64,000 bases of DNA. It comes from Flavobacterium sp. 5. Lineage in GTDB: Bacteria > Bacteroidota > Bacteroidia > Flavobacteriales > Flavobacteriaceae. Numbering within the stretch: position 1 is the stretch's first letter; each line of letters starts with the position of its first letter. The stretch spans positions 1,860,001-1,924,000 of the forward strand of contig NZ_PHUE01000001.1 of assembly GCF_002813295.1 (NCBI RefSeq), written 5' to 3'. Below are positions 1 through 20,162 of this stretch, piece after piece. The position numbers and the translations under genes were made by a program. The notes under the pieces were generated by a model. The model ran no database searches and was not told where the DNA came from. It worked only from the letters and a program-made list of their open reading frames with translations.

Positions 1-634
1 CCTGATCTTTCACATCCGATAAATGACCGTTCAAATTAAAATAACTATGATGAGTTAAATTCACTATTGTATCTTCGGTAGTCTTGGCACTGTATTGAAT
101 AATCAACTCATTTTCTTCGGATAATGTATAAGTAAGCTCTACCACTAAATTCCCTGGATAATTTTCTTCATTTGATGGACTAGAATAACTCAACGTTATT
201 GCTGATTTTTCATCTTGTATTACTTTTTCAACTGACCATATTTTTTGACTAAACCCAATGATACCACCATGTAAGGAATTATCATTGTTGTTCTTATTCA
301 AAAGTATTTTTTGTTCATTCAAATTAAAAGTACTATTTGCAATCCTCCCGGCATATCTTCCTACTGTTGTCCCCATATAAGGTGGACTTACTAGTTGAAA
401 TGATTGTAAATACCCCTCTAAAGAATCAAAACCCAAAACAACATCAACAATATCACCGTTTTCCAATGGTACTTTTAATTCTGAAATTGTAGCTCCGTAA
501 GTAATTACCTTTAAGCTCATTCCATTTTTATTGGATAATTCATAAGAGTATACAGCATCTCCATTAGGCATTAAACCGAACAATTCCTCTACAGAAGTAT
601 TTTTAATTTGTGAATTGTGTTTTATTTCCATCAT
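1..634 (-). CDS. galM: Aldose 1-epimerase (mutarotase), 3' end cut by window edge
   Basis: Reading leftward from ATG at 634 gives 211 codons without a stop before base 1. The protein begins MMEIKHNSQ and carries mutarotase landmarks: VITYGATISEL near the N-terminus, GRYAGRI in the substrate loop, NSLHGG, and VNLTHHSYFNLNG close to the edge. The last contains a His that is usually part of the active site. Aldose 1-epimerases interconvert alpha and beta anomers of galactose, glucose or arabinose before phosphorylation. There is no signal peptide, so it should be cytoplasmic, unlike the lipoprotein mutarotase at 43480. A second ATG lies one codon downstream and could be the start. The gene has its own promoter and an operator shared with the two SusC units to its right, so it belongs to the GntR circuit. 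Downstream genes are outside the window. Confidence 0.93.
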   Translation of the reverse strand, partial: MMEIKHNSQIKNTSVEELFGLMPNGDAVYSYELSNKNGMSLKVITYGATISELKVPLENGDIVDVVLGFDSLEGYLQSFQLVSPPYMGTTVGRYAGRIANSTFNLNEQKILLNKNNNDNSLHGGIIGFSQKIWSVEKVIQDEKSAITLSYSSPSNEENYPGNLVVELTYTLSEENELIIQYSAKTTEDTIVNLTHHSYFNLNGHLSDVKDQ

Positions 635-655: not shown

Positions 656-705
656 CAAATATATATAAAATATCGAGTCAGACATACCAGTACCTACCAG
701 TTTTT
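656..705 (-). promoter_or_regulatory. galM promoter with putative GntR operator
   Basis: On the minus strand a -7 box TATATTTG lies at 663-656, about 22 bases before the galM ATG, which gives a very short leader. The direct repeat TACCAG-TACC-TACCAG (685-700, plus-strand reading) sits 22 bases upstream of that box. The same motif at the same distance precedes the leftward SusC genes at 6556 and 18605. The box matches the known Bacteroidetes consensus; assigning the repeat to the GntR regulator at 19164 is inference. Confidence 0.72.
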
Positions 706-707
706 GA

Positions 708-746
708 ATCTTTAAAAAAAACCTCGGATGCATATCATCCGAGGTC
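708..746 (-). terminator. Rho-independent terminator of the SusCDE operon
   Basis: A perfect 10-base stem ACCTCGGATG/CATCCGAGGT (721-730 and 736-745) with a 5-base loop is followed, reading leftward, by seven T. It lies 60 bases past the stop of the SusE gene and before the galM promoter, separating the two units. Confidence 0.9.
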
Positions 747-804
747 TAATCATTATTTCAATATACTTTTTGTTTATAGTAAAAAACTTGTAATCAAATA
801 CGTA

Positions 805-1878
805 TTATAGTGCTGGAATTAACATATATCTACCATCGATATCATCAAACCAGATATCGTATTTTCCTGTAGTTTCTACCCAAATATTAGCTCCGGAGCT
901 ATCTCCCCAACTTACATCCCAGCTATTATTAGCTTTAAATTTCATTTTTCCTTGCACTAACTCTTGAGTAACTTTCCAAATATGAGAATCGAATGTTGAA
1001 CGAACCATAGGAACATCCACACTCCAGTTATTATCATCGCCTGTTAATACAGAACCTGTTACAGAAATTGCATTATAATCAGTCTTCGTCCCTGTATAAG
1101 AAGAAATAGTATAAGTCAATGCTTTAATATCAATTGCAAAAGTATAATAACCATCAGCATTAGTAGGGAAAAGTCCTGGATCTGCATCACCTTCTGTAGC
1201 TCTGTATTGTACTTTGTCGCCATTTGCACCATACATTGGAGCCCAAAAACCAGTTTGCTCAAGCAATTTAAATCCACCAGCTGTAAAGTAACCTGTATAA
1301 TATTGTTTAGCTGGATCAAGTGGATCTCTAAAAATTGGCACAACAGCCATATTTGCATCCCATAACGCTGAAGTTCCCGGACCAATTAAATACAAATCTT
1401 TTGAAGGGAAAACTCCTGCATAAGGTGTTACGATAATTGTTATTGGAGTAGAAAGTTTAGGCTCTGATCCTGTAGTCCCAACAGTTGATTTAATTCTAAT
1501 ATCAATAGTTCCCTGTTCGTCTGCCTTTAATCCAAGATCTAAAGCTTTTGTATTCAATTCAGCAACAGTCATAGTTGCATGAGTTGTCGTTACTGAAGAA
1601 ACATCTACTGGAGCAGCAAAATCAGTATTACTAGCTGCTAATTGGATAGTATAAGTTACAACTGTTGGCGTTCCATAATCTACTGCTTCCCAAGTTAGAG
1701 TCAAAGCAGTATTATCTGGTGTGTCCTCGTTTAACACAACCGAAGAACCATTATCTGGAGTAATGATAGAAAAACTACCAGCTTGAGGTTCTAAAAGCAT
1801 GAAATTCTCTTCGTTTTCACATGACGACATTCCTAAGATAAGTGCCAGTGCAATAAAATGTTTGAATATATTTTTCAT
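805..1878 (-). CDS. SusE/SusF-family outer-membrane glycan-binding lipoprotein
   Basis: 357 residues. The N-terminus MKNIFKHFIALALILGMSSC is a lipoprotein signal with the acylated Cys at residue 20, followed by acidic residues that favour surface export in Bacteroidetes. Residues about 30-130 look like the SusE N-terminal Ig-like domain (FSIITPDNGSSVVL, LTWEAVDY). Two beta-rich starch-binding-like modules follow and end in WFDDIDGRYMLIPAL. SusE/SusF proteins are non-enzymatic surface binders that help hold oligosaccharides near SusC/SusD. It is the last gene of the leftward SusC-SusD-SusE operon, 105 bases after susD. The ligand cannot be read from sequence. Only this one of the three SusC/SusD pairs in the window has such a partner. 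Confidence 0.83.
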   Translation of the reverse strand: MKNIFKHFIALALILGMSSCENEENFMLLEPQAGSFSIITPDNGSSVVLNEDTPDNTALTLTWEAVDYGTPTVVTYTIQLAASNTDFAAPVDVSSVTTTHATMTVAELNTKALDLGLKADEQGTIDIRIKSTVGTTGSEPKLSTPITIIVTPYAGVFPSKDLYLIGPGTSALWDANMAVVPIFRDPLDPAKQYYTGYFTAGGFKLLEQTGFWAPMYGANGDKVQYRATEGDADPGLFPTNADGYYTFAIDIKALTYTISSYTGTKTDYNAISVTGSVLTGDDNNWSVDVPMVRSTFDSHIWKVTQELVQGKMKFKANNSWDVSWGDSSGANIWVETTGKYDIWFDDIDGRYMLIPAL

Positions 1879-1983
1879 ATGTTAATATTTTATAGTTTTT
1901 TTTAAATTTGCATGTTTTTTTTGGCTTTAACTACCAATTGTCAAACCATGCACATGAGTTTTGTTCAATTTATTTATAACAGA

Positions 1984-3591
1984 TTAATAACCTGTATTTT
2001 GATGTAAATTATGGTTAGCTCCCAATGAACCAACAGGAATTGGGAAAACACTCATAAACGATGGAATTGAAACTCCAGTTGAAGCATTTCCTTTCCAAGC
2101 CCAATTGTAAGAACCACCAGTATATTTACCAAAACGAATTAAATCTTGTCTTCTATGAGCTTCCCAGTGTAATTCACGTGCTCTTTCATCAATTATAAAA
2201 TCAAGAGTTAAATCACTTGCGGTAATATTTCCAACAGTCGAATTTTTATTGGCTCTCAATCTCAAAGCGTTTACATAAGTTAAAGCTTGAGTTGCATTTC
2301 CGTTACCACCTCTAAGTGTAGCTTCGGCATACATTAAATAAACATCTGCTAATCTAAATAGTGGAAAATCAGTATCAGCATAAGTAGAGCTACTACCATT
2401 TGCACCTGTAGAAGTTTTATTTGAATATTTAGATAAAATATAGCCTTGCGTTTTTACTCCAAGATCAGCAATATCTATAGGTCTTTGCTTTGAAGGATCA
2501 CCTTGTACACCAGTTCCAATAGTTTTTCTAGTATCTTGATTAAATTTTCCTCCATCAAATTTTTGCGCAAATTGCTTTCTGATTCGAAGTGCACCACTCC
2601 ATCCACCAATTCCAAAATCGGCAGCATTATTTTCCCATACCCCAATTTCACCATTAATCAAAACTGTAGTTGCTCCCCAGTTTTGAGAAACCACTCCATC
2701 AGATTGAATACCAAAAATGATTTCTTCAGAAGTATTGTTATCAGCTTTAAAGTTATCTAGGTAATTCGGTTTCAAAGTATAGCCTCCTGCAATTATTTCT
2801 TCACACTTGGTCACACAATCATCATAACGATCTTCCTGAACATATACTTGAGCATTCAAATAAATTTTGGCTAAAATCATTCTTGCCATACCTTGATCTA
2901 CTCTACCATAAACATTGGTACGTGCTGGTTTCAAATCTGGAATAACTGCTAATAATTCAGTTTCAACAAAATCAAATAACTGTTTTCTGCTAAATTCAGG
3001 TCCAGCGTAATTGATAGGATCATCCTCTGTGTACATTGGAGCTTTACCAAACAAGTCCATCATATTATAATAAGCATAAGCTCTTAATACTTTAACTTCT
3101 TTTCTGTAAAGTGCAATATCTGCAAGTTTTGCAGCATCAGTAATTCCTCTTGATTGCAATTTTTCAGGAGTACTTTGACGCAAAAACTCATTGGCATAAG
3201 CCACAGAAGCCATTGTTCTACTGTACATACCTAAAATTACAGGATTGGCAGCTGTCCAAATATTTCTTTGCAATTCGGCAGTACCGCTATCGGCTTCATA
3301 ACTCCAAACTAATTCGTCTGTAGTTAAATCCTGCAAATACAATAAACATCTGGTAAACTGGCTTGTTCCAGCATCAACACCTTCCAGCGAAGAGTCATTT
3401 GGACCAATAACCCCTGTCAAAGTAAGATTACCATATACTCCTGCAAATGCTTTTTCGTATCCTCCTGGAGAAGCATACAATGCATCAGAAGACAAAACAT
3501 CATCATCTTCAGACACAACATTTAAGTCATTGGTACATGATTGAAGTACCGTTGTGAGTACTAAAATGGATATATATATATATTTTTTCAT
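1984..3591 (-). CDS. SusD/RagB-family nutrient-binding outer-membrane lipoprotein
   Basis: 535 residues from ATG at 3591. This start is chosen because MKKYIYISILVLTTVLQSC is a clean lipoprotein signal (Cys 19); the longer reading from 3624 would overlap the end of the upstream susC. SusD proteins are helical TPR-like lids on the SusC barrel that capture oligosaccharides at the cell surface. Family landmarks include the N-terminal SusD_like helices (YEKAFAGVYGNLT) and the C-terminal segment FRLADVYLMYAEATLRGG followed by DERARELHWEAHRRQDLIRFGKY, which is diagnostic of RagB/SusD. The gene follows susC by 10 bases and precedes susE. Specificity is unknown; the operator shared with the beta-/alpha-galactosidase operon suggests a related galactose-containing glycan. 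Confidence 0.95.
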   Translation of the reverse strand: MKKYIYISILVLTTVLQSCTNDLNVVSEDDDVLSSDALYASPGGYEKAFAGVYGNLTLTGVIGPNDSSLEGVDAGTSQFTRCLLYLQDLTTDELVWSYEADSGTAELQRNIWTAANPVILGMYSRTMASVAYANEFLRQSTPEKLQSRGITDAAKLADIALYRKEVKVLRAYAYYNMMDLFGKAPMYTEDDPINYAGPEFSRKQLFDFVETELLAVIPDLKPARTNVYGRVDQGMARMILAKIYLNAQVYVQEDRYDDCVTKCEEIIAGGYTLKPNYLDNFKADNNTSEEIIFGIQSDGVVSQNWGATTVLINGEIGVWENNAADFGIGGWSGALRIRKQFAQKFDGGKFNQDTRKTIGTGVQGDPSKQRPIDIADLGVKTQGYILSKYSNKTSTGANGSSSTYADTDFPLFRLADVYLMYAEATLRGGNGNATQALTYVNALRLRANKNSTVGNITASDLTLDFIIDERARELHWEAHRRQDLIRFGKYTGGSYNWAWKGNASTGVSIPSFMSVFPIPVGSLGANHNLHQNTGY

Positions 3592-3601
3592 GATTTTATT
3601 T

Positions 3602-6556
3602 TTAAAATTTGATGTTAAGACCAAACAAAATAGATCGTTGTCTTGGATAAATGGTTTTATCTACACCATTGTTTGTAATTTCAGGATCCAATCCACTGTA
3701 TTTAGTAATTACAAATGCATTTTGAACTCCAGTTGAAACTCTTAATGTAGCCTTATCATTTAACCAATTTGTAAAAGTATAACCCAATGAGATATTATCC
3801 ATTTTTAAGAAAGAAGCATCTTCTATATAAATATCAGACAATACCACATTTGAAGTAGTTTGAAAACCAGTTTGTAATATTGAAGACGGAACATTACTTA
3901 ACACTCCTCCATTTTCTAAGTTATCAAACTGTGCTCTAGAAGCATCAATTGCATTAAAAATTCGATTCCCAATACTTGCTCTCAAATTGAATGAAAAATC
4001 AATATGCTTGTAATTCATACTAGAAGAAAAACCAAATACAGCATCTGGATCGGGATTATGATAAATATATTTATCAGCATCATTTTTCACACCATCACCA
4101 TTAATATCAGCAAAAGCACCATCAATAGGTTTCCCTGCTGTATCATATAATTGTTTGAAAACATAATAAGAGTAAGGTGCATAGCCTTCGCTAAAAACTT
4201 GCCCAGGAGTCCCTGTACCAGCAATATTATCTCCCAAAAGAATATCGGTATTATTAACCAAATCTTTAATTCTTCTTTCAAATTTAGTAGCTGTCAAGTT
4301 TACATTCCAATTAAAACTATCCGATTGCAATACAATAGCATTAATACTTAGCTCTACCCCTTTAGTTGTAAACGAGCCTACGTTTTGATACACTCGATTC
4401 GAGAAGTTACTACCGTCAGAAATTGCCGCATTTACCAACAAATCTTTAGATTCTTTAGCAAATACATCTACAGCTGTTGTTAGACGATTATTAAAAAGTC
4501 CAAAATCTACACCTATGTTAAAAACTGAAGTTTCCTCCCATTTCAAATCTTTAGTTCTTTTGCTTGGCAATGCAACTGGCATTGAAACATCTCCAAAATA
4601 ATACTGTGAGTTACCACCACCAAGGTTATATTTTTGTAAATAACCATTTGGCTCTGGTATGTCTTGTTGTCCTGTAATACCATAACTCACTCTAAATTTA
4701 AAGTCGGATATCGTTTTACTGTCTTTAAAAAAGTCTTCTTTCATTTTCCATGCAAAAGCTGCTGCTGGAAAATTACCCCAACGATTTTCTTCTTCAAAAC
4801 GAGAAGATCCGTCTCTTCTATAAGACAAAGTCAATAAATATTTGTCTTGAAAATTAATATTGGCTCTACCAAACAAACCTATTAAAACCACATCAGTATC
4901 GATAGTTGTTTCAGGAAAAGTTGACGCCAGATCAGGATTCAAAATATTACCTGTTTCAAATTTAGTGCTTTCAAATCTTTGATACGAATATCCAGCTGTA
5001 GCATCAATATTAAATTCGTTAACTTTCTTGTTATATGCAAAATAGGTATCTAATAATTTATTTCTTTTGGTTGCTTCTGTATATTCGTTAGTACCATAAG
5101 GAACATTATTATTAGCTGCTGCAGAACCAGCATCGTCTCCTACTAATCTTTTTCTTTCTCCATTCGATTGGTCAAACCCAACATTGACAACTGCTCTTAA
5201 ATCAGGAAAGAAATGTAATTTATAATCCACTTCGAAATTACCAAAAACTCTATTACTAGTACCTCTATCATTGACCATCAATAATTGAGAAACAGGATTT
5301 CTAGCCGAATTAGGATCCAAAGTATATTTTCCATCACTATTAATTCCTGTAGTATATTCAAAAAATCCTCCATAAGGTGCTCCGTCTACACGAACAGGTT
5401 GTGTAGGATCGAACCCAATAGCTGCTCCTTCTACTCCGTCTGTAAATCTGTTTTTCTCATTAGCATAATTAGCTGCCAATTTTAATTTCAAATGATTATC
5501 AAAAAAAGCAGGATTCATAACCAATCCAACAGTATTTCTCTCGAACTCATTAGTTAATCTTAATCCTTGTTGATTAGTATTCCCTAAAGTCAAACTTGTT
5601 GGAATAACATTTAAAAGATTTCCTCTTACTGACAAATTTTGGTCTAAATACCCAGTGCTTCTATAGATCTCTTTTTGCCAATCTGTGTTAGCAGTACCCA
5701 ATTTACTACTATAATTTGTCCCTCTATTTTTATCACTTTCTGCAATTAACGCACGATAATCATCAGCACTAAAAACATCTACTGTTTTTACAAGCTTACC
5801 AAATCCATACATTACATTATAATCTACCGCCAAAGTTTTACTTCCTTTTTTGGTTGTTATAATAATTACACCATTAGAAGCTCTAGAACCATAAATAGCA
5901 GTTGCAGAAGCGTCTTTCAAAACAGCAATCGACTCTACTGTACTAGGGTTTAGTGATGCTAAAAATGAAGAAGATCCAATATTTGTATTATTATCCAATG
6001 GCAATCCATCGATAACGATAAGTGGATCATTACTTGCAAACAGGGAACTTCCTCCTCTAATTCTCATTTCGGATTTAGCACCTGGAGCTCCAGTAGAGTT
6101 CACAGTTAAACCTGCTACTTTTCCTTTGAATAAATCTTCAGTAGTAACATTTGCCCCTTTATTGAAGTCTTTAGCTCCTAAAGCGACAACAGCACCTGTT
6201 GCGTCTTTCTTTTTCACTGAACCGTACCCAACTTGGATTTTCACTTCAACCAGTTGATTAGCTTCTGATTCAAGGCTTACGGTAAGAGTTTTTTGATTAG
6301 TAAAGGTTATAATTTCATTTTTATACCCCATAAATGTAAAAACGATTTTATCGCCTTGCTTTGCATTTGGAATCTGAAATTTTCCATCAAAATCAGTTGA
6401 GACACCATTTGGAGTCCCTTGTACTTTTACATTTACTCCGGGTATGGGTTGTCCTGAACCACTGTCCAGAACAGTCCCTTTTACTACATTCTGCGAAAAG
6501 GCGCAAAATGGAAGTAGGAGAAATAAAAATAACAACTTCTTGTAAATTTTTTTCAT
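3602..6556 (-). CDS. SusC/RagA-family TonB-dependent outer-membrane transporter
   Basis: 984 residues, normal for SusC. A signal peptide ending in FCAFSQ (about 22 residues) is followed by a CarboxypepD_reg-like domain (VKGTVLDSGSGQPIPGVNVK, about 25-100). The plug domain has the conserved AIYGSRASNGVIIITT segment near residue 220. The beta-barrel ends in the usual aromatic strand (GLNIKF). SusC forms the TonB-driven import channel closed by SusD. It heads the leftward operon with susD and susE. The predicted transcript starts near 6833, giving a leader of roughly 275 bases. The promoter shares its operator and spacing with the other galactose-side units. No glycoside hydrolase is encoded within this operon, so its enzymes may be those of the neighbouring operon or lie elsewhere. 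Confidence 0.96.
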   Translation of the reverse strand: MKKIYKKLLFLFLLLPFCAFSQNVVKGTVLDSGSGQPIPGVNVKVQGTPNGVSTDFDGKFQIPNAKQGDKIVFTFMGYKNEIITFTNQKTLTVSLESEANQLVEVKIQVGYGSVKKKDATGAVVALGAKDFNKGANVTTEDLFKGKVAGLTVNSTGAPGAKSEMRIRGGSSLFASNDPLIVIDGLPLDNNTNIGSSSFLASLNPSTVESIAVLKDASATAIYGSRASNGVIIITTKKGSKTLAVDYNVMYGFGKLVKTVDVFSADDYRALIAESDKNRGTNYSSKLGTANTDWQKEIYRSTGYLDQNLSVRGNLLNVIPTSLTLGNTNQQGLRLTNEFERNTVGLVMNPAFFDNHLKLKLAANYANEKNRFTDGVEGAAIGFDPTQPVRVDGAPYGGFFEYTTGINSDGKYTLDPNSARNPVSQLLMVNDRGTSNRVFGNFEVDYKLHFFPDLRAVVNVGFDQSNGERKRLVGDDAGSAAANNNVPYGTNEYTEATKRNKLLDTYFAYNKKVNEFNIDATAGYSYQRFESTKFETGNILNPDLASTFPETTIDTDVVLIGLFGRANINFQDKYLLTLSYRRDGSSRFEEENRWGNFPAAAFAWKMKEDFFKDSKTISDFKFRVSYGITGQQDIPEPNGYLQKYNLGGGNSQYYFGDVSMPVALPSKRTKDLKWEETSVFNIGVDFGLFNNRLTTAVDVFAKESKDLLVNAAISDGSNFSNRVYQNVGSFTTKGVELSINAIVLQSDSFNWNVNLTATKFERRIKDLVNNTDILLGDNIAGTGTPGQVFSEGYAPYSYYVFKQLYDTAGKPIDGAFADINGDGVKNDADKYIYHNPDPDAVFGFSSSMNYKHIDFSFNLRASIGNRIFNAIDASRAQFDNLENGGVLSNVPSSILQTGFQTTSNVVLSDIYIEDASFLKMDNISLGYTFTNWLNDKATLRVSTGVQNAFVITKYSGLDPEITNNGVDKTIYPRQRSILFGLNIKF

Positions 6557-6839
6557 ACTTTTTTTAAATTAAATTGATTGTGGTTTAGTTATTGGTTCAT
6601 GCATTGGGTATTCTCTTTAATAAACTTGGGTAATTTTATATTTGAACTACCTGTTCAGGTATAAATCTTAATCGAAACAAAAAAACATATTTATATAAAT
6701 AGAATTCAAGCGATTAGCATTATTAGCCAAAAAGAATCCTAGATCATATTATCGGATTTAATGAAAAATCGATATATAATTCGTTTAAAAACAATATTAA
6801 TTGTTTTTTTTGCTTTATTTTTTATGAAATATGAAATTT
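6557..6839 (-). promoter_or_regulatory. Long susC leader with an inverted repeat
   Basis: This non-coding stretch of about 280 bases lies between the predicted transcription start and the susC ATG. Its only clear structure is the inverted repeat TACCTG-TT-CAGGTA at 6648-6661, which resembles a dimeric protein-binding site more than an RNA hairpin. It contains ACCTG/CAGGT rather than the TACCAG repeat used upstream, so it may be a second operator (for example carbon control). Function is unproven. Confidence 0.4.
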
Positions 6840-6890
6840 CAAAATTATGTGTTAATTTTACATTTAAATACCAGTACCTACCAGTTTTTT
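6840..6890 (-). promoter_or_regulatory. SusCDE promoter with putative GntR operator
   Basis: The minus-strand -7 box TAATTTTG is at 6847-6840. TACCAG-TACC-TACCAG is at 6869-6884, again 22 bases upstream of the box. The flanking AT-rich sequence, including AAATTTCA just past the -7 box, also matches the promoter at 19084-19134. The operator is intact although the regulator copy beside it is dead, which suggests control in trans by the product of the gene at 19164. Confidence 0.75.
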
Positions 6891-6918
6891 GAGTATTAGT
6901 AAAAATATTATTAGTACG

Positions 6919-7820
6919 GTAAAAATTATTTCTAATCCAAAGAAACTTATTGATCTGAAATACAGATAAATTATTAATTCATTTGAAAAAGTAATTGAAA
7001 AGGAAAAACTTACTAAATATGTTTTTTCCCTATCAGTAAACAAAGTGTGTTTGGTCATTTTTATATCTCAACAACCGTCTTAATAAAAATAATAATATCA
7101 AAAAACAGGAAGTGCGCATGACATTCTTAAGAAGAATACTCATAATAAGATACTGATTATCAATGTTAAATAAAAATATTTTACTTTTTAACGGACTAAA
7201 TATTTTCAAGGAATACTTCTACAACTCGTTTTTAAAAGGCATATATAAAAATATTGAAGAGGAGATTTTTTTTATAACTTTAATGTTAAGCTTTTCTAAA
7301 AATTGATAAATTATTGTTACCGTAATTACATCAAATACATCATCACACCAATCACTTAATCGATGTAATTTTTTTTATAAAAACCCTACCAGTAAACGAT
7401 GTAATCATATTGCATCAAACCAATGAAGAGCTAAAATTCTTCCCAATGATTTATCAAAATAAAAAAAATATCCTCAAAAAACTGAATAAAATAAAAACAG
7501 AACTTAAAAAACAAAAAACATTATAGTTTTCGTCTGTTTCTAAAGGTTTTTAGTGATTAAATCAGTCTTAAAACAATTATATTGAGCACATACTTACTAA
7601 TGAAATCATTCACGAATTCATAGTAAACAATAGAACATCAGGAAGCGTTTATATCTTCCCAAGTGATAGTAATCTCGTTCGGGAAATTGAGAAGACCCGA
7701 GAACAAAATCGAAAACTAGGAACTGATTTTGGTATCATTTCCTAAAACCAAACTCCATTAAAAAAAGAAGTACATAATGGAATCATTATTATTTTCAAAC
7801 AAATTTACCTCTATAGGCAA
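6919..7820 (+). pseudogene. Decayed copy of the GntR/LacI-type regulator
   Basis: This stretch aligns by eye along its length with the intact regulator gene at 19164-20162. Examples are CTAAATATTTTCAA near 7196, AAAACCCTACCAGTAAA near 7380 and GGAACTGATTTTGGTATCAT near 7718. It cannot be translated: the start ATG corresponds to GTA at 6919-6921, a CAA codon has become TAA at 6967-6969, a TAT has become TAA at 7743-7745, and there are small indels. About 250 bases covering the gene's 3' end and the following spacer are missing after about 7815. It is oriented divergently from the SusC gene at 6556, as the intact gene is from the SusC at 18605, so the arrangement is a duplicated regulator-SusC unit. 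Confidence 0.88.
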
Positions 7821-7850
7821 AACCTCATTCTATTTAATTTTTTTTTAATT

Positions 7851-8075
7851 ATTTATACCCAAAGCAACTACTTCAGGTATAAATAAATGAACCAAAAATT
7901 TATATTTTTTTTCTTAGTAAATTTTACAAATTCACATAAACAAAAACAATAATAAATTTACTAAACCAATAACGACAAACCACTGTATTATTGAATTTAC
8001 ATCTACAAAGTAAAACTTATTTAGAAAGTAATATGAGGGGTAAATTGGAAAAAAATAAAGGTCAAAATCGCAATT
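7851..8075. repeat. Copy 1 of a 225-base block found downstream of both regulator copies
   Basis: This block is collinear with 20361-20583 with few indels (225 versus 223 bases). Shared stretches include AACAAACCACTGTATTATTGAA-like sequence near 7980 and AGGGGTAAATT near 8037, and both copies end in AAAGGTCAAAATCGCAATT. It holds no convincing gene. It shows that the duplication extended beyond the regulator reading frame. Confidence 0.85.
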
Positions 8076-8123
8076 TCATTGCTTATTACACTAATAAACA
8101 ATGAAATTGCGATTTTGACCTTT
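8057..8123. repeat. Perfect 25-base inverted repeat, 17-base loop
   Basis: Arms at 8057-8081 and 8099-8123 are exact reverse complements. The left arm begins with the 19-base motif AAAGGTCAAAATCGCAATT, which also occurs once (single arm) at 20565-20583. It lies between the duplicated block and the terminator of the GH36 operon and has no T tract of its own on the plus strand. It could be an RNA hairpin, a palindromic protein site, or the footprint of a rearrangement. Confidence 0.9.
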
Positions 8124-8126
8124 TAC

Positions 8127-8183
8127 AAAAAAATAATTAATACAACCCCGTACATTAAAAATAAACAGAGCGTTTGGGGTTGT
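8127..8183 (-). terminator. Terminator of the SusCD-GH2-GH36 operon
   Basis: The stem ACAACCCC/GGGGTTGT (8142-8149 and 8176-8183) has a 26-base loop. Reading leftward it is followed by TTAATTATTTTTTT. It lies 35 bases past the GH36 stop codon. The long loop makes it a weaker terminator than others in the window. Confidence 0.65.
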
Positions 8184-8217
8184 TTTTATTTTTCTAATCT
8201 GAGCTGATTAACTCCAA

Positions 8218-10440
8218 TTATTTTACTTCGTTTATTTCGAGAACAACACTTGTTCTTTGTAAAGTAACATTCGGATTAATTCCTGTTTTCATAAGAAAAT
8301 CTCCAGAAAAAATAGCATCTGCTGCAATTGACGAACTTGTTTCTGGATATAAATTAATTTCCTTTACAGTATATTTTTTATTTGGATTAAGTCCTTTAAG
8401 AACGACTGGAAGTTGTGTTGCCGTCATTTTTAAACGATTGTTCACTAAATAATTAAAAACAATAGCTCTGCTCTGATCTTTAGCAACATACATTAAAGCT
8501 GAAATATCATTTTCATGTGGATTTACCAAACGAAATAAATCGCCATGCCATACAACATCCTTAAAAGAATGATAGTTAGAAATGGCTTGTTTACAGAATA
8601 TCTTATCCTTATCGTTAAGATGACTCGCAACAATATCGAAACCTAATTTACCCATACTTGCCACATCGACTCTAAATTTTAAGGGTTGTTTACCCCAATC
8701 TGTCACATGATTACAAGAAGAGATTGATGGGAAGAAATAGGAGTAATCCCATTGCATAAATATTCTCTCTATAGGTTCTGTATCGTCACTTGGCCAAAAT
8801 TCGGTAAAGTATTTAAGGAATTCATAATCAGCTCTGCCACCACCACCAGAACATAACATCATTGGTACTTTAGGATATTTAGCACGTATTCTTTCCAATA
8901 CTTTGTACAACCCTTTTATGTAATCTATGTACAAATTAGATTGAGGAATTCCTTTTTTGTTAAGATATGCTGAATACGCATTATAAATAACGGCATTACA
9001 ATCCCATTTTATAAATGCCAACTCCGGATTTTTTACAAAAAGATTATCTACGATTCCAAACACGAAATCCTGTACTTCTGGATTAGACAAATCCAGCACT
9101 AATTGATTACGATAATAAATCTCTGGTCTTTCTGGCTGACGAATTACCCAATCCAAATGTTTTTCATACAGCTCACTTTTTGGATTTACCATCTCAGGTT
9201 CTATCCAAATACCAAATTTAATTTGTTCTTTTTTAGCTTCTTTTACTAAATATCCTAAACCATGAGGTAGCTTTTTTACATTTTCCTGCCAGTCACCAAG
9301 ACCTGCTTTATCATCGTTTCTTGGGTATTTATTTCCAAACCATCCATCATCTAGCAAAAACATATCAACTCCAAGATCTTTAGCATCCTTAAACAAGGAA
9401 GCGATTTTGTTTTCATCAAAATCAAAATATGTCGCCTCCCAGTTATTCAGCAAAGTAAGTCTTTCGCCTTGACCGTCTAGCAATCTATATTTTCTTGCCC
9501 AATCATGAAGATTACGACTCGCTTCACCAGTACCGTTGTTAGACAATGCATAAACCAAAGAAGGTGTTTTGAAAACTTCATTTGGTTGTAAAAGATATTC
9601 TGAAGCGTATGGATTAATACCTGCAATCAAGCGAAGATTTTTATAAGAATCAATCTCAAAATCAAGTTTAAAATTACTACTCCAGGCTAATTGACCTAAC
9701 ATAACAGTTCCTTCAGTTTCTGATGCTGGTTTTCCAAAAGACAGCATAAAATTAGGACTTTGCAACAACATACTTCTTGTTCCCAATTTTGAATCCACAG
9801 TTCTAATTCCTTGTTGAAGCTTTGTTTCAATAGGCTGCATTTCCTTCAAGTACTCCCCTTGAAAAGTTGTTAGATAAAAATCTTTATTGGTAAAATATAA
9901 ATTAGCCGAAGCAAATTTTTGCAACAAAACCGCTTTTTTCTCTTTGTGCTTTATTTCAGACCATTGCTCAATTACGTTTTCTTTTGGCCAGACTTTATAA
10001 AACAAAGTAACCTCGAACGGATAAACAGGATCTTTTAAGACAATACTTGTAAGTGATGAATTACTATCTATTTTTTCTGTTTTATGACTAACGTATTTTA
10101 GTTCTAATGAAGGATTCCCATCGGCATGTTTTACTTGTATTGCAGCTTCGGATAAGTTCCAAGTACCTGCTGGTGTATATACCGAATTATAGATTCCAGC
10201 GTTATCATCATTAAAGTTATACGCATTGGCAACCAATGAATATTCACTTGCGTTTTGAAGTGGTTTTCCAAAATAAACTGTTTTAAGCTTATTATCCTTA
10301 TCCGTTTGCAACAGCAGCAAATTACTGTCTGTTGCTATTGGAATAATCACTTTTTGAGCTGATAAGCTAATGACACTTAATACAAAACACAAAGTGAATA
10401 TTGCTTTTCTCTTAAAATTGGTTCTCAAATTTTCTTCCAT
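8218..10440 (-). CDS. GH36 alpha-galactosidase, exported
   Basis: 740 residues, typical for bacterial GH36 of the AgaA/RafA type. It hydrolyses terminal alpha-1,6-galactose from raffinose-type oligosaccharides, galactomannan or similar glycans. The N-terminal beta-sandwich is followed by a catalytic barrel with LNNWEATYFDF (about 331), LLDDGWFG (about 362), the nucleophile Asp480 in IKWDCN and the acid/base Asp552 in WPSDDTEP. The GGGGRADYE segment (533-540) also fits the family. A signal sequence (LCFVLSVISLSAQ, cleavage near residue 29) implies a periplasmic enzyme. It is the last gene of the leftward operon, 43 bases after the beta-galactosidase. Having alpha- and beta-galactosidases together indicates a galactose-rich substrate under GntR control. 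Confidence 0.95.
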   Translation of the reverse strand: MEENLRTNFKRKAIFTLCFVLSVISLSAQKVIIPIATDSNLLLLQTDKDNKLKTVYFGKPLQNASEYSLVANAYNFNDDNAGIYNSVYTPAGTWNLSEAAIQVKHADGNPSLELKYVSHKTEKIDSNSSLTSIVLKDPVYPFEVTLFYKVWPKENVIEQWSEIKHKEKKAVLLQKFASANLYFTNKDFYLTTFQGEYLKEMQPIETKLQQGIRTVDSKLGTRSMLLQSPNFMLSFGKPASETEGTVMLGQLAWSSNFKLDFEIDSYKNLRLIAGINPYASEYLLQPNEVFKTPSLVYALSNNGTGEASRNLHDWARKYRLLDGQGERLTLLNNWEATYFDFDENKIASLFKDAKDLGVDMFLLDDGWFGNKYPRNDDKAGLGDWQENVKKLPHGLGYLVKEAKKEQIKFGIWIEPEMVNPKSELYEKHLDWVIRQPERPEIYYRNQLVLDLSNPEVQDFVFGIVDNLFVKNPELAFIKWDCNAVIYNAYSAYLNKKGIPQSNLYIDYIKGLYKVLERIRAKYPKVPMMLCSGGGGRADYEFLKYFTEFWPSDDTEPIERIFMQWDYSYFFPSISSCNHVTDWGKQPLKFRVDVASMGKLGFDIVASHLNDKDKIFCKQAISNYHSFKDVVWHGDLFRLVNPHENDISALMYVAKDQSRAIVFNYLVNNRLKMTATQLPVVLKGLNPNKKYTVKEINLYPETSSSIAADAIFSGDFLMKTGINPNVTLQRTSVVLEINEVK

Positions 10441-10483
10441 AATTTTATTTTTAGTGTCCTCAATTCTTTCAATAACACTGCTT

Positions 10484-14002
<3,519 letters not shown>

Positions 14003-15520
14003 TTACCAAGGTGCATTTGGAGTCATTTTAGGATTATTATTCAACTCACTTGATGGAATTGGATAGTAATTATATTTAGCAGAAAAATTGTTATATCCTT
14101 CTCTTAAACTTCCTTTAATAACAGTTTCTAATGTACCCCATCTTCTTAAATCATACCAATGAAGTCCTTCACGCGCAAACTCCACATTTCTTTGGTGCAT
14201 AATTTCATCCATCATTTGTGTTTGATTCCATCCCACCATTGATATGTCAGCCAATTTTGCTCTATCTCTGATTCTTTTTACTAATGGAGCCGCTTCTGCT
14301 ACATTTCCTTGCATTGTTTTAGCTTCAGCAAGCATCAAAAGAACATCCGCATAACGCATTGCATATTCATTTAATTCAGATTTCCAGTCACCTTCATCAT
14401 TATTCCACCAATTTTGATTTTTTCTGATCCATATGGCATTAGCTCCAAATTTTGTTGCAAAATCAGCTTTATAATAAACACAACCAGGATAATTCCAAGC
14501 TAAAGTAGCTGTAGCTCTAGGGTCAAATTCACCATCAGCAGTTTTTTCTTGAAGCATTGCATCCAATAACGTTTTTGAAGGTAATAATTCAAACCAGCCA
14601 CCTACTTCACCAGGAGCACATTCCTGAGCCATTGTTGTAGCTCTTGTTCGTTGAGAAGGTTCTCCTCCCCAAATAATTGTTCCTCCTACTTTACTAAATT
14701 GGATTTCAAAAACAGATTCTTTACTATTTTCATGTTTTCCATCAAAAAGTTGTGCATAATCATCTAAAAGACCATAACCATTAGTCCCTTCATTATTAAC
14801 TAATTTAGTAAATTGTTCTTCAGCTTTTACCCAATTTTTCATGTACAAATAGGTTTTTCCTAAATAAGCAATAGCAGCATTCTTAGTCGCTCTTCCTTTA
14901 TAAGCAGCTGGATAATTTTCAGGAAGCGAACTTGTTGCTGCAAGCTCAAAATCTGCAATTACTTGATTCCAAACTTCCGCTTCGGTTGATTTAGCTTTAA
15001 AATAATCCTCTTGATTAGTAACGATGTCTGTAAAAATAGGCACACTACCATACTCTGTTACTAAGCAGAAATAGTTTAACCCTCTTAAGAAACTAGCTTC
15101 GGCAACTAACTGCTCTCTCTTTGTTTCATCAATACCCTGAATTTGTGGAGCATAATGAATTACCTGATTAGCACGAAATATACCTATATACAAAGTCTTG
15201 TATATAGCTGTTGTTTCTGCTGTACTTGGGCTGTTCTTATATGTAGCAACTGCATAGCGACCAGGTACATCATTACGAGCAATAAAGTTTTCAGTTCTGT
15301 TTTCTTTTAATTGCATTGACTGTATTTCCCAATAACCAGCGTTATTATTGTCAACTAAGGCATTGTATATCGTACCTACACCGGATTCTAAATCTGCTGA
15401 AGTTTTCCAGAAAGATTCATTTGTCAATTTATTTGGATTACCTAAATCTAGGTCTTCACTGCAAGAACTAATAGATAAAAGTCCTCCTATAAAAAATAGT
15501 ATAATTAATTTCTTTTTCAT
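14003..15520 (-). CDS. SusD/RagB-family nutrient-binding outer-membrane lipoprotein
   Basis: 505 residues from ATG at 15520. That start gives the lipoprotein signal MKKKLIILFFIGGLLSISSC (Cys 20); the upstream in-frame start at 15553 would overlap the susC stop. Family signs are the N-terminal NESFWKTSADLESGVGTIYNAL region, the RGLNYFCLVTEYGSVPIF helix and the C-terminal RYADVLLMLAEAKTM plus HQRNVEFAREGLHWYDLRRWG segments. It is the surface lid and capture protein for the SusC encoded 10 bases upstream. Its downstream neighbours are beta- and alpha-galactosidases, so the ligand is likely a galactose-containing oligosaccharide. It is only distantly similar to the SusD at 1984. Confidence 0.95.
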   Translation of the reverse strand: MKKKLIILFFIGGLLSISSCSEDLDLGNPNKLTNESFWKTSADLESGVGTIYNALVDNNNAGYWEIQSMQLKENRTENFIARNDVPGRYAVATYKNSPSTAETTAIYKTLYIGIFRANQVIHYAPQIQGIDETKREQLVAEASFLRGLNYFCLVTEYGSVPIFTDIVTNQEDYFKAKSTEAEVWNQVIADFELAATSSLPENYPAAYKGRATKNAAIAYLGKTYLYMKNWVKAEEQFTKLVNNEGTNGYGLLDDYAQLFDGKHENSKESVFEIQFSKVGGTIIWGGEPSQRTRATTMAQECAPGEVGGWFELLPSKTLLDAMLQEKTADGEFDPRATATLAWNYPGCVYYKADFATKFGANAIWIRKNQNWWNNDEGDWKSELNEYAMRYADVLLMLAEAKTMQGNVAEAAPLVKRIRDRAKLADISMVGWNQTQMMDEIMHQRNVEFAREGLHWYDLRRWGTLETVIKGSLREGYNNFSAKYNYYPIPSSELNNNPKMTPNAPW

Positions 15521-15530
15521 TTTAGTCGAT

Positions 15531-18500
15531 TTAAAAGTTAAGTTGCATTCCAAAAGTGATAGTTTTACTTAGAGGGTATGATTTGTAATCTATTCCTCTA
15601 CCACCTAATCCGTCTCTTGAAACATCTGGATTATAACCTGTATAATTTGTATGAGTAAAAAGGTTGTCTCCTGCCAAATAGAATCGAAGTTTGTCAATTT
15701 TAATTTTATCAGTTAAACTAGAAGGAAGTGCATATCCAACTTGAATCGTTTTGATTCTAAGATATGATCCGTCTTCCAAGAAACGATCAGAATAATCAGC
15801 TCCATTATCATTTAAATCTTCAATATCCAATCTTGGGAAATTTGAATTTGGATTAAACGTATAAGAATCTAAAGTTGCAGCCGAATAATTGATATTAGAT
15901 CTAACAGTAGCTATATCGGTATTGTTACCATTGTATATTTTATTCCCTTGAGTTCCTTGAGCAACAATAGTGAAATCAAGTCCTTTCCAATCAGCTTGAA
16001 TTCTGAATCCGTATTCATAGTCTGGGAAAGCACTTCCTCTGTATTGTCTATCATTTCCGTCAATTTGACCGTCACCGTTGTAATCGACGTATCTTATATC
16101 TCCAACTTTAGCTCTAGGCTGAATAAGAACTCCGTTTATACTATGCTCATCTATCTCTGCTTGTGATCTAAATAATCCATCTGTTTTAACTAAAAAGAAA
16201 GAATAAATCGGAGATCCTACTTTACTATATGTTACTGGAGCACCATGAAAGGAACCAGCAGACCCTTCTAATACTTGACTTCCTGTACTAAGTTCATCAA
16301 CACGATTATTTACACTTGAAATATTGGCGCTAACCGAAAAATTAACAGCTCCTACATGCTCGTTATAAGTAAGCCCCATTTCAAATCCTTTATTAGAAAC
16401 TTTACCCGCATTTGTATATGGGTCATTTGCTGATCCAACAGACAATGGAACTGGTACTCTTAAAAGCAAATCACTTGTCTCTTTTTGGAAGTAATCAAAA
16501 GTATAATCAACTTTACCATTCCATAAACTAACATCTAGACCAACGTTTGCTGTTGCAGTAGATTCCCATTTCAAACCAAGGGCTGGGTAATCCTGTTGAA
16601 TATTACCAATCCACAATGTATTTGGTTCTCCAACTGCATAACTAATTCCAGATGTTATAGATCCAAGGTATTGGTAATCTCCAATTTCTTGATTTCCTAA
16701 TACACCATAACTAGCACGTAACTTTAAATCAGATATTGGTGTATTTAACTTTGTAAAAAAGTCTTCTTTACCAATTCCCCAAGCCGCAGAGATAGAAGGG
16801 AAATTACCCCATTTATTCTCTGGGCTAAAACGAGACGATCCATCACGTCTGAAAGTCGCTGTTAAGATATATTTGTTATCATAAGAATAGATAGCACGAC
16901 CTAAGTATGACACTAAATTATTTTCGCTGGCATAACCAACTGATGAAGGCTCTTCTCCACCTGCCATAACATGTATTCCATCTGGCAATCCAGTTACAGA
17001 ACCTACATTAGATCTATAGTTATTGTTATAAACCGTGTATCCTGCTAAAATATTCACAGAGTGTTTACCGAAGGTTTTTGCATAATTTAAAGTATTTTCT
17101 ACTTGATAATACTGAGTCATATCACTTCCTTCTGCCAAAGTATTTTTCAAGTTTTTGAAAAATCCGCCTACTTCATAACGAGGAGTGTACGTATAACTTT
17201 TATGTTCAGAAATAGTTGCACCTACATTTAATTTATATTTAAAACCATCTAAAAAACTTGCTTCAACATAGGTATTGATAAGCGCTTGGTAGTAATCATT
17301 TTTAACATCAAAAAGATTTAGTGCAGCAACCGGATTAAATATATCAGTTACAGCACCTGATGCTCCACCATATCCTCCAACCGCATTTTCATCATAAATA
17401 GCAAAACCAGGAATCATAGAAATAGCAGACCCAACAACATTGCTACCTTGTCCGGGAACACCAGGCAAGTCTTTCTTTTTTTCTTTGGTTAACATTACAG
17501 TTTCTCCAATCTTGAAAATCCCTTTTTTATAATCAGATTTAACTCTAAAGTTAAGACGATCATAATTAGTTTCTTTAACTACTCCCTCTTGATCAAAGTA
17601 ACTTAAAGACATACTATATTTTGTATTATCAGTTCCTCCAGATAAACCTAAAGAATAATTTTGAGTAGCCGCAGATCTAAATATTTGATCTTGCCAATCC
17701 ACTCCTGCACCACCCACTTCAGGGTTTAATGCAATAGCAAGTGGTGCTTTTCCAGCAGCAGCATAAGCAGCTGTACTTACTTTAGCCCATTCTTCTTGAT
17801 TTAACAAATCTAACGTATTGGTTACGCTAGACACCCCAATTGAAGAGTTAAAAGAAACTTTTAAATCCCCTTTTTTACCGCTTTTAGTTGTAACTAAAAT
17901 TACACCGTTTGCAGCTCTAGATCCATAAATTGCAGCAGCAGAAGCATCTTTTAATACCTGAATAGACTCGATGTCACTAGGGTTAAGATTATTCATAGAA
18001 GAAACAGCAATATCATCAACTAAAATAAGAGGGTTATTATTATTTAATGATCCAGCACCTCTAATTTGAATTCTGGTACCTGACCCAGGAGCTCCTCCAG
18101 CAGATTCAACAGTTACACCTGCAATTTTCCCTTGAATTGCACTACCTACATTTGTGTTACTTTGAGAATCTAACTGAGATGATTTTAAGCCTCCTACTGC
18201 ACCTGTCATGTCACTTTTCTTAATAGTACCATAACCAATTACAATAACCTCATTTAAGGCATTGTTTTCCTCTTTTAAAGCCACTTTAATTTGAGTTCTT
18301 CCATTTAATGCCTCTTCCACTTTTTCATATCCTACATATGAAAAAACTAATATTGCATTAGGATCAGATACATCTAAAGTAAAACTTCCATCATAATCAG
18401 TAGTTGCAGAATTAGTGGTCCCTTTAACTAATATAGAAGCTCCAATAATAGTCTGAGACGTTTTTTGATCAATTACTGATCCTGATATTTTATTCTGAGC

Positions 18501-18605
18501 TTGCAAACTGATACAGCACGTCATAATAAAAATCAACAAGGTAAATTTAGACAACAAGGAATCTTTTATCCATGTTAGCTGATTTAAGTTCTTTGCATTT
18601 TTCAT
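15531..18605 (-). CDS. SusC/RagA-family TonB-dependent outer-membrane transporter
   Basis: 1024 residues. The N-terminus is long for a signal: MKNAKNLNQLTWIKDSLLSKFTLLIFIMTCCISLQAQ, with cleavage after about residue 37. Then come a CarboxypepD_reg-like domain (ISGSVIDQKTSQTIIGASIL), the TonB-box region and plug with AAAIYGSRAANGVILVTT near residue 230, and the beta-barrel ending in FGMQLNF. It imports the glycan fragments later cut by the GH2 and GH36 enzymes of the same leftward operon. The promoter lies about 480 bases upstream and carries the GntR operator. The regulator gene is divergent on the other side of that operator. Confidence 0.96.
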   Translation of the reverse strand: MKNAKNLNQLTWIKDSLLSKFTLLIFIMTCCISLQAQNKISGSVIDQKTSQTIIGASILVKGTTNSATTDYDGSFTLDVSDPNAILVFSYVGYEKVEEALNGRTQIKVALKEENNALNEVIVIGYGTIKKSDMTGAVGGLKSSQLDSQSNTNVGSAIQGKIAGVTVESAGGAPGSGTRIQIRGAGSLNNNNPLILVDDIAVSSMNNLNPSDIESIQVLKDASAAAIYGSRAANGVILVTTKSGKKGDLKVSFNSSIGVSSVTNTLDLLNQEEWAKVSTAAYAAAGKAPLAIALNPEVGGAGVDWQDQIFRSAATQNYSLGLSGGTDNTKYSMSLSYFDQEGVVKETNYDRLNFRVKSDYKKGIFKIGETVMLTKEKKKDLPGVPGQGSNVVGSAISMIPGFAIYDENAVGGYGGASGAVTDIFNPVAALNLFDVKNDYYQALINTYVEASFLDGFKYKLNVGATISEHKSYTYTPRYEVGGFFKNLKNTLAEGSDMTQYYQVENTLNYAKTFGKHSVNILAGYTVYNNNYRSNVGSVTGLPDGIHVMAGGEEPSSVGYASENNLVSYLGRAIYSYDNKYILTATFRRDGSSRFSPENKWGNFPSISAAWGIGKEDFFTKLNTPISDLKLRASYGVLGNQEIGDYQYLGSITSGISYAVGEPNTLWIGNIQQDYPALGLKWESTATANVGLDVSLWNGKVDYTFDYFQKETSDLLLRVPVPLSVGSANDPYTNAGKVSNKGFEMGLTYNEHVGAVNFSVSANISSVNNRVDELSTGSQVLEGSAGSFHGAPVTYSKVGSPIYSFFLVKTDGLFRSQAEIDEHSINGVLIQPRAKVGDIRYVDYNGDGQIDGNDRQYRGSAFPDYEYGFRIQADWKGLDFTIVAQGTQGNKIYNGNNTDIATVRSNINYSAATLDSYTFNPNSNFPRLDIEDLNDNGADYSDRFLEDGSYLRIKTIQVGYALPSSLTDKIKIDKLRFYLAGDNLFTHTNYTGYNPDVSRDGLGGRGIDYKSYPLSKTITFGMQLNF

Positions 18606-19083
18606 AAAATCATAATTTTTAAAAATTGGTTAGTTAATGGTTTTTTGGTATTCAATCAATTCTGACCATAATGAGCTTAAAAAGTGATTAATTTTTTTCT
18701 CGGTCAGTATTCAAGTTTGAAAAAAATGCTTTCAAACTGATTATTGATTTTATTTTAAATATCTAATTATTATAAATCAAAATGTTTATAATGTTAACCA
18801 GATAAATTTCTCAACATTTTTTTAGACTTTTCTCAGGTATACTATCTCTTTCTATTCCTCCAATCATTTAATATCACGAGTAATGTTATTATTACAAGTT
18901 AGATAAGTCAATATCTTACAAATACTAGAAATAATTTACTTTAAACTCATTCTATTCTACCTACAACCTGTACGGATATATCTCTACTTATCTGAGATCA
19001 AAATAAACAAATCACCTATAAATTTAGTTTAAATTTATGAATTGTGTTTTTTTTAGATTAATTTATTATGAATTGTGAAATTT
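18606..19083 (-). other. Long AT-rich susC leader, no gene
   Basis: About 480 bases separate the predicted leftward transcription start from the susC ATG. I see no ORF, tRNA or known riboswitch. Short imperfect repeats such as TTCAAGTTTGAA near 18711 occur. The length is unusual for a plain 5' leader and may carry post-transcriptional control, or a second promoter. Confidence 0.45.
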
Positions 19084-19143
19084 CAAAATTATAAGTTAAA
19101 TATATATTTCAATACCAGTACCTACCAGTTTTTTGTATATTTG
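19084..19143. promoter_or_regulatory. Divergent promoter region with GntR operator
   Basis: Leftward: -7 box TAATTTTG at 19091-19084 for susC, with TACCAG-TACC-TACCAG at 19113-19128, 22 bases upstream. Rightward: -7 box TATATTTG at 19136-19143, only 7 bases past the operator, driving the regulator gene with a leader of about 14-20 bases. One operator therefore sits between two promoters. That fits autoregulation together with control of the SusCD-galactosidase operon. Confidence 0.75.
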
Positions 19144-19163: not shown

Positions 19164-20162
19164 ATGAAAATCATATCAATCCAAAACAACCTTGGTGTCC
19201 CTAAATACAGACAAATCATCAATTCAATTGAAAAAGCAATTAACGAGGAAAAACTCATAAAAGGAGATCGCCTACCTTCTGTAAATAAAGTCTGTTTAGC
19301 CTTTAATTTATCACGAGATACGGTCTTATTAGGATACGATGACCTGAAAAAAAGAGGAATCATTTATGCCATCCCTGGCAAAGGATATTATGTCAAAAGT
19401 GTTGAAATTACTATAAAACAAAAAATATTTTTACTCTTTGACGAGCTAAATATTTTCAAAGAAGACATCTATAATTCATTTTTAAAAAACATTGGTAAGA
19501 ATGTTCAAGTCGATATTTTTTTTCACCATTTTAATGTACAGGTTTTTCAAAAATTGATAAATGACTGTAACGGAAATTATACTAAATACATCATCATGCC
19601 AACCAACTTAATCGATGTAGTTGCTTTTATAAAAACCCTACCAGTAAATGACGTAATTATCCTGGATCAAACAAATGAAGAGTTGAAATCTTTTCCTGCG
19701 ATTTATCAAAATCACAAAAAAGATATCTTTGAAGGGCTGAATAAAGGAAAAACAAAACTAAGTAAATACAAAAAATTCATAATGATTTTCCCTGGTTTCA
19801 GAGAGCCACCAGGAATGAAAATTGGATTTGAAAACTACTGTTTGGAAAACGGCATAGATTATGAAGTTATTCAGGAATTTACTGATAGAGAGATAACAAC
19901 TGGAAGTGTTTATATCATCCCAATTGACAGGGATCTGGTCCAGGTAATTGAGAAAGCTCGAGAACAAAATCTAAAATTAGGAACTGATTTTGGTATCATT
20001 TCCTATAATGAAACTCCACTAAAAAAAGTAGTATCTAATGGAATTACAACTATTTCAACCGATTTTACAACCATGGGGAAAATATTAGCCCAAATGGTTC
20101 TTACTGGAAAAAAAGAACAAATTGAAAACAAAAGTGCATTGATTATTAGAAATTCATTATAG
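19164..20162 (+). CDS. GntR-type winged-helix regulator with LacI-like sugar-binding domain
   Basis: 332 residues from ATG at 19164. The in-frame GTG at 19143 is rejected because its G is the last base of the -7 box TATATTTG. Residues about 1-70 form a GntR helix-turn-helix (PKYRQIINSIEKAI, GDRLPSVNKVCLAFNLSRDTVLLGYDDLKKRGII, PGKGYYV). The rest resembles a LacI-type periplasmic-binding fold that normally binds a sugar effector, ending in GKILAQMVLTGKKEQIENK and a short tail. This domain pairing is common in Bacteroidetes sugar regulators. It is divergent from the SusCD-GH2-GH36 operon, and I infer it binds the TACCAG repeats here, at 6868 and at 684. The effector is unknown; galactose or a derivative is plausible from the target genes. 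A dead paralogue lies at 6919. Confidence 0.9.
   Translation: MKIISIQNNLGVPKYRQIINSIEKAINEEKLIKGDRLPSVNKVCLAFNLSRDTVLLGYDDLKKRGIIYAIPGKGYYVKSVEITIKQKIFLLFDELNIFKEDIYNSFLKNIGKNVQVDIFFHHFNVQVFQKLINDCNGNYTKYIIMPTNLIDVVAFIKTLPVNDVIILDQTNEELKSFPAIYQNHKKDIFEGLNKGKTKLSKYKKFIMIFPGFREPPGMKIGFENYCLENGIDYEVIQEFTDREITTGSVYIIPIDRDLVQVIEKAREQNLKLGTDFGIISYNETPLKKVVSNGITTISTDFTTMGKILAQMVLTGKKEQIENKSALIIRNSL

Follow-up and report, generated by a model that had tools for sequence, protein, structure and literature searches.

A phased direct-repeat operator and its putative GntR-LacI regulator at galactose genes of Flavobacterium sp. 5

The 16-base sequence TACCAGTACCTACCAG occurs three times in a 64,000-nucleotide stretch of the Flavobacterium sp. 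5 genome (contig NZ_PHUE01000001.1, positions 1,860,001 to 1,924,000; hereafter the window). Which protein recognizes this sequence, and does that protein turn the adjoining genes on or off? A sequence-only reading of the window had proposed one GntR-type regulator acting from a fixed position at three promoters, and had left the sign of the regulation open. The 16-mer is present exactly where it had been described, and comparison with related genomes indicates that the three sites are very probably docking sites of one sugar-sensing regulator for galactose and galactan use. There is good support for a conserved regulon to which they belong and whose direct-repeat operator is unusual. The sites, their promoter boxes and the regulator gene are as follows (positions within the window):

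685..700, minus strand: operator 1, reading CTGGTAGGTACTGGTA towards galM; exact copy, box at 21 nucleotides (nt)
656..663, minus strand: -7 box TATATTTG of the galM promoter, from sequence
6869..6884, minus strand: operator 2, towards SusCDE; exact copy, box at 21 nt
6840..6847, minus strand: -7 box TAATTTTG of the SusCDE promoter, from sequence
19113..19128, minus strand: operator 3, flanked by SusC and the divergent regulator gene; exact copy, box at 21 nt
19084..19091, minus strand: -7 box TAATTTTG of the SusCD-GH2-GH36 promoter, from sequence
19136..19143, plus strand: TATATTTG, likely -7 box of the regulator's own promoter, 7 nt to the right of operator 3
19164..20162, plus strand: gene of the GntR-LacI regulator, the proposed binding protein (Pfam GntR and Peripla_BP_3; co-occurrence with the motif)

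The window holds no copy of TACCAGTACCTACCAG beyond these three at up to three mismatches (mean of 100 shuffles, 0.20), and the whole genome, one contig of 4.97 Mb, holds no further exact copy. Two other places in the genome match with two mismatches; the one at genome position 2800944 is phased with a box, and the one at 496319, which has no box, was rejected as a target. All three leftward boxes in the window have the form TAnnTTTG. Their constant distance from the operator, on which the earlier proposal was built, holds at every site, with the correction that the gap is 21 nt from the operator edge; the figure of 22 had been counted from the edge to the first base of the box. Read towards the genes, the operator is CTGGTAGGTACTGGTA, in which two ACTGGTA repeats lie 10 base pairs (bp) apart if a flanking base is counted. 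The layout ACTGGTA-GGT-ACTGGTA is tandem, with a repeat period of one helical turn (10 bp). Two further patterns were discarded. An early operator pattern with wrong gaps matched only one unrelated place at three mismatches, and the stretch after the box, considered as a second element (TANNTTTGRWTTTCA), has 13 copies in the bacterium's own genome vs. 9 for a backward control.

We infer that the sites are bound by the product of the gene beside operator 3. The protein has an N-terminal GntR winged helix (PF00392, E 2.2e-08, above the cut-off) and a C-terminal LacI/GalR-type sugar domain (PF13377, residues 211-326 of the 339-amino-acid open reading frame, ORF). Foldseek returned LacI-family structures as the best matches to the regulator model, which is of moderate quality (predicted local distance difference test score 73.6); its DNA-binding part is poor and was left uninterpreted. 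Matches to the regulator in the PDB include the AraR DNA-binding domain (4egy, ranked second), GabR, and the pyridoxal phosphate-dependent MocR-like chain 7pq9.

Regulator and site occur together across the genus. Among 199 Flavobacterium genomes, 107 encode an orthologue and 100 carry the motif with at most one mismatch; two genomes with weak paralogue matches only (G031 and G078) were scored as lacking the regulator. Both are present in 95 genomes, the regulator only in 12, the motif only in five and neither in 87 (Fisher p 2.7e-36, uncorrected for kinship). All ten of the regulator-only genomes examined upstream of the gene have a site with two or three mismatches there; the other two of the 12 have a partial gene and a gene with stops. 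Three of the five motif-only genomes have a single one-mismatch site and no box; the other two (G031 and G048) have phased sites. Counted by locus, a site with at most three mismatches lies upstream of the orthologue in 106 of 108 cases (60 exact, 33 with one mismatch, 11 with two, and two with three), at a median of 32 nt from the start codon; a box stands 21 or 22 nt from the site in 99 of the 106. The two loci that fail are a second regulator copy in G150 (six mismatches) and one locus in G180 (four mismatches). Five paralogue loci (35-38% identity) show four to seven mismatches to the site.

The association extends beyond the genus. We found an orthologue (E ≤ 1e-70) in 64 genomes out of 299 searched in the family; two of the 64 belong to Flavobacterium itself. 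A search of 296 genomes across the phylum gave relatives outside the family with identities of up to about 40%. Upstream sequence was sufficient at 62 loci from other genera and absent at one further locus. Of these 62, 61 carry CTRGTAGGKWCTRGTA with at most three mismatches, 31 of them exactly, and the reversed pattern of CTRGTAGGKWCTRGTA never matches these 62 loci with fewer than four mismatches. In some of them the repeat is perfect over nine bases, with CTGGTAGGT present twice, 10 bp apart. The operator points away from the regulator gene in 41 of the 61 loci and towards it in 20. That a protein other than the GntR-LacI regulator binds the sites is therefore very improbable: the link between regulator and site does come from position and co-occurrence, but motif and orthologue go together in the 199 genomes and in 61 of the 62 other-genera loci, and paralogue loci lack the site.

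Could the three copies simply be relics of duplication? A feature missed by the sequence-only reading bears on this, namely a remnant of the regulator gene beside operator 2 and the block duplication to which it belongs:

6913..7822, plus strand: decayed regulator gene copy, interrupted by many stops (tblastn pieces with 59% and 41% identity; blastn 72%)

The blocks around sites 2 and 3 are 72% identical over 1043 bp, operator included. Sites 2 and 3 are related by this duplication and thus not fully independent. A 25-base stretch bearing the operator is identical between them, but it is weak evidence by itself because the same alignment has other identical runs of 28 and 24 bases. These runs, and the position of both sites in duplicated blocks with a decayed regulator, speak for functionless leftovers; yet the flanks of site 1 differ, and site and spacing are conserved in the genus. 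Pure duplication without function is contradicted by this conservation in relatives and was rejected as extremely improbable. Only one intact copy of the regulator gene is present in the genome, and a plasmid search using the decayed copy gave no match. In close relatives (L018 and L020) the regulator promoter adjoins galM, and the right flank of site 1 is similar to that promoter. An ancestral galM-operator-regulator pair was likely split later by inserted SusCD loci carrying copies of the operator.

The spacing between operator and box is conserved too. In Flavobacterium loci we scored 205 distinct sites with at most two mismatches, those less than 60 nt from the start of a locus being left unscored. 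In 187 of them a same-side box stands 21 or 22 nt away (161 at 21 nt and 26 at 22 nt); a box at these distances on the opposite side occurs in 0 of the 205. Exact sites (n = 125) have the box at 21 nt in 109 cases and at 22 nt in 14, with none in two; the corresponding numbers are 43, 10, and 12 for one mismatch (n = 65) and nine, two, and four for two mismatches (n = 15). At other offsets in the left flank, TAnnTTTG occurs at 3 of 10,070 positions (190 sites with at most one mismatch). The spacing also recurs within genomes at differently flanked promoters, being kept in 57 of 61 sites of 25 tabulated genomes; this table leaves out three boxless one-mismatch sites of the same genomes (L086, L095, and L100) as well as two whole genomes, G049 and G129, in which the second site (L102 and L077, respectively) is boxless. 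One-mismatch sites with neither a box nor a galactose gene behind them (L046, L052, L077, L086, L095, L100, L102, and L108) were taken as chance matches. Together with the co-occurrence in 199 genomes and at 106 of 108 loci, the phasing at 187 of 205 sites supports, well beyond the three sites of the window, the earlier claim of one regulator acting at a fixed position.

What would the regulator do there? Class II activators bind with their centre near -41.5. Mapping of transcription starts in Flavobacterium psychrophilum places TAnnTTTG at -12 to -5 (PMC9723704). With a gap of 21 nt, the operator would therefore span -49 to -34 with its centre at -41.5, or at -42.5 where the gap is 22 nt; the centre of the operator is thus predicted to be fixed near the class II position in the 161 and 26 sites, respectively, of the 205. 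The two DNA-binding domains of the regulator would sit head to tail on the tandem repeat, and the bound protein would contact RNA polymerase and activate the leftward galM and SusCD promoters. Operator 3 also covers the -33 to spacer region of the regulator's own predicted promoter, so the same bound protein may cover the core of this promoter and repress the regulator gene. To the left of the operator, the rigid spacing and single direction fit activation; to its right, the overlap fits blocking. The LacI-type domain probably binds galactose or a galacto-oligosaccharide as the inducer. Site, phasing, direction, co-occurrence, and target genes were read from the sequence, from which we infer binding, activation, autorepression, and the effector. 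Taken together, it is probable, though far from certain, that the regulator activates the galM and SusCD promoters from the tandem operator and represses itself, in response to a galactose-type inducer.

The regulator's own box on the opposite side stands at loose offsets of 5-9 nt and has the form TAnnTTGY in 64 and TAnnTTTG in 13 of the 106 loci; TAnnTTGY is the SM5 motif of F. psychrophilum (PMC9723704). In many relatives (e.g., L021-L031), TAnnTTGY is often found there rather than TAnnTTTG. A further (T/C)ACCAG lies to the right of the operator, about 21-22 bp (two helical turns) from the second repeat, in L054, L144, L154, L155, and similar loci.

Most GntR regulators are repressors, as are those of the LacI type, and the same regulator could act as a repressor everywhere from the same sites, with the operator overlapping the -33 element and polymerase blocked until the sugar brings release. 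The operator ends at -34, and the T and G immediately after it, conserved in 156 and 138 of the 161 sites with a 21-nt gap, fall at the expected -33 element. A common -33 element would couple the operator to the -7 box, and operator 3 overlaps the regulator promoter too. Bacillus subtilis AraR acts in this manner. So, reportedly, does Escherichia coli NanR, a repressor (PMC8012715). However, promoters with different flanks need not share one exact offset and orientation to be repressed, and spacing is loose at the regulator's own promoter, where blocking is likely. We therefore consider repression throughout unlikely, perhaps one chance in several, and favor activation of the leftward promoters because the phasing is rigid, one-sided, and at -41.5.

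Several observations weigh against activation combined with autorepression. A repressor over the -33 element would likewise give a fairly fixed position. Eighteen of the 205 sites are boxless, two of them exact. The sites are related by descent: when grouped at 70% flank identity, the 187 boxed ones form 54 clusters, and the largest cluster has 113 members. Operators 2 and 3 of Flavobacterium sp. 5 are followed by the T but not the G and so are without the usual TG, and 29 of the 106 regulator loci have neither form of the rightward box. Outside the genus, a TAnnTTWG box at 19-23 nt is found only in 32 of 61 loci, and the operators that face the regulator gene (20 of 61) are a poor fit to simple autorepression there.

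The genes behind the sites had been named correctly in the sequence-only reading (galM; SusCDE; SusCD-GH2-GH36):

2..634, minus strand: galM (aldose 1-epimerase), start inferred at 634 (Pfam Aldose_epim)
805..6556, minus strand: SusC (3602-6556), SusD (1984-3624), and SusE (805-1878) (ORFs; SusC and SusD by sequence)
8218..18605, minus strand: SusC (15531-18605), SusD (14003-15553), GH2 (10484-13618), and GH36 (8218-10440) (ORFs)

SusC, SusD, galK, galT, and galE were assigned from sequence alone. Past the window edge, galM is followed by GH53, GH53, GH2, galK, galT, galE, and a sodium:solute symporter. When the first ORF behind each of 95 distinct sites was compared with reference proteins, 54 matched galM, 21 SusC, three GH2, two galK, one GH36, and one SusE; the other 13 matched none of the references. 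The predicted targets of the regulon are galactose genes: galM, galK, SusC/D, GH2, GH36, and GH53.

The count of three promoters in the earlier proposal is probably too low, as the phased site at 2800944 and the overlapped regulator promoter add to it. Pectic rhamnogalacturonan bears galactan side chains, and a pectin locus would for this reason fit a galactose regulon. The site at 2800944 has the box TACATTTG at 21 nt and lies ahead of genes for a BNR_4 protein and a GH88-like protein (under its cut-off), with a GH28 gene nearby (L358, C1:2799500-2806500). This locus is a possible pectin member of the regulon. Elsewhere in the genus, a phased one-mismatch site in L079 (at 15583 in G017) precedes a short ORF resembling a sigma factor. 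Counted from the proposed starts, the leaders of both SusC genes in the window are long (18606-19079, about 470 nt, and 6557-6835, about 280 nt); Rfam gave nothing at gathering score over window positions 1-25000, SusC leaders included.

The operator had been described as a direct repeat, unlike the palindromes usual for GntR proteins. In Flavobacterium it is indeed a direct repeat (lag-10 identity 0.69); the best inverted reading has 6/11 pairs, short of a palindromic operator of the AraR type. The operator variant facing the regulator gene in other genera is nearer to a palindrome (8/11 inverted pairs). Bacillus subtilis AraR is reportedly a repressor with a palindromic operator, unlike the direct repeat, activator position, and galactose genes of the present system. 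Both share the architecture of the AraR subfamily, in which a LacI/GalR-type sugar domain is fused to a GntR winged helix (PMC4494728). Direct repeats are unusual yet known for GntR-type DNA-binding domains, in NanR, NagQ, FarR, and MocR (PMC4494728, PMC5320631).

A direct-repeat operator between divergent genes, as at operator 3, resembles the working of MocR regulators. PdxR-type MocR regulators activate a divergent operon and repress themselves, and PdxR and GabR bind direct repeats through a GntR-type domain (PMC5320631). The GabR repeat ATACCA (PMC4494728) resembles the half-site of the present operator. The differences are that only PF00392 and PF13377 were found in the regulator, with no aminotransferase-like C-terminal domain, the hallmark of MocR, and that its repeats are one turn apart vs. 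two or three (PMC5320631). E. coli NanR is a GntR regulator of sugar use with close direct GGTATA repeats, but it is a FadR-type repressor that places three dimers on three repeats (PMC8012715). In Bacteroidota, FucR and ManR of Bacteroides thetaiotaomicron are GntR-family sugar regulators, and a SusC/SusD operon is part of the ManR regulon (PMC3878776). They serve fucose and mannose, and the part of the published table compared lists no GntR galactose regulator (PMC3878776). In open-access word searches (RegPrecise not covered), we recognized no paper as describing this regulon.

In other genera, the recognized neighbors of the regulator are galK, galT, the sodium:solute symporter, GH53, GH2, galE, galM, and SusC. 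Where the operator faces the regulator gene, the latter lies ahead of galK in 19 of 20 loci, and in such loci the protein may activate its own operon. The proposal would define a galactose/galactan regulon for Flavobacterium and its family, with a precise operator code whose spacing rule could help to locate targets in other genomes. SusR-like and hybrid two-component regulators account for most motifs in the Bacteroides regulon study (PMC3878776). We suggest, tentatively and as somewhat less than an even bet, that GntR-LacI hybrids of Flavobacteriaceae bind head to tail on one-turn tandem operators rather than palindromes, so that an architecture classical for sugar repressors serves as a directional class II activator. 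How would a LacI-type dimer place two GntR domains on a one-turn direct repeat, and does the resulting asymmetry make the activator directional?

Paralogues of about 35% identity have tandem repeats of a related half-site near the start codon, with shared words in 11 of 12 loci counted (from a group of 20). If the suggestion is correct, these paralogues would make head-to-tail binding the habit of a larger subfamily. Paralogous GntR-LacI genes (L170, L171, L319-L338, and several of L350-L357) have tandem repeats just before the start codon, for example ACCAGAACAGAACAG or AACAGAACGG twice. These repeats follow a TAnnTTAGC-like box and may represent a second class of direct-repeat operator.

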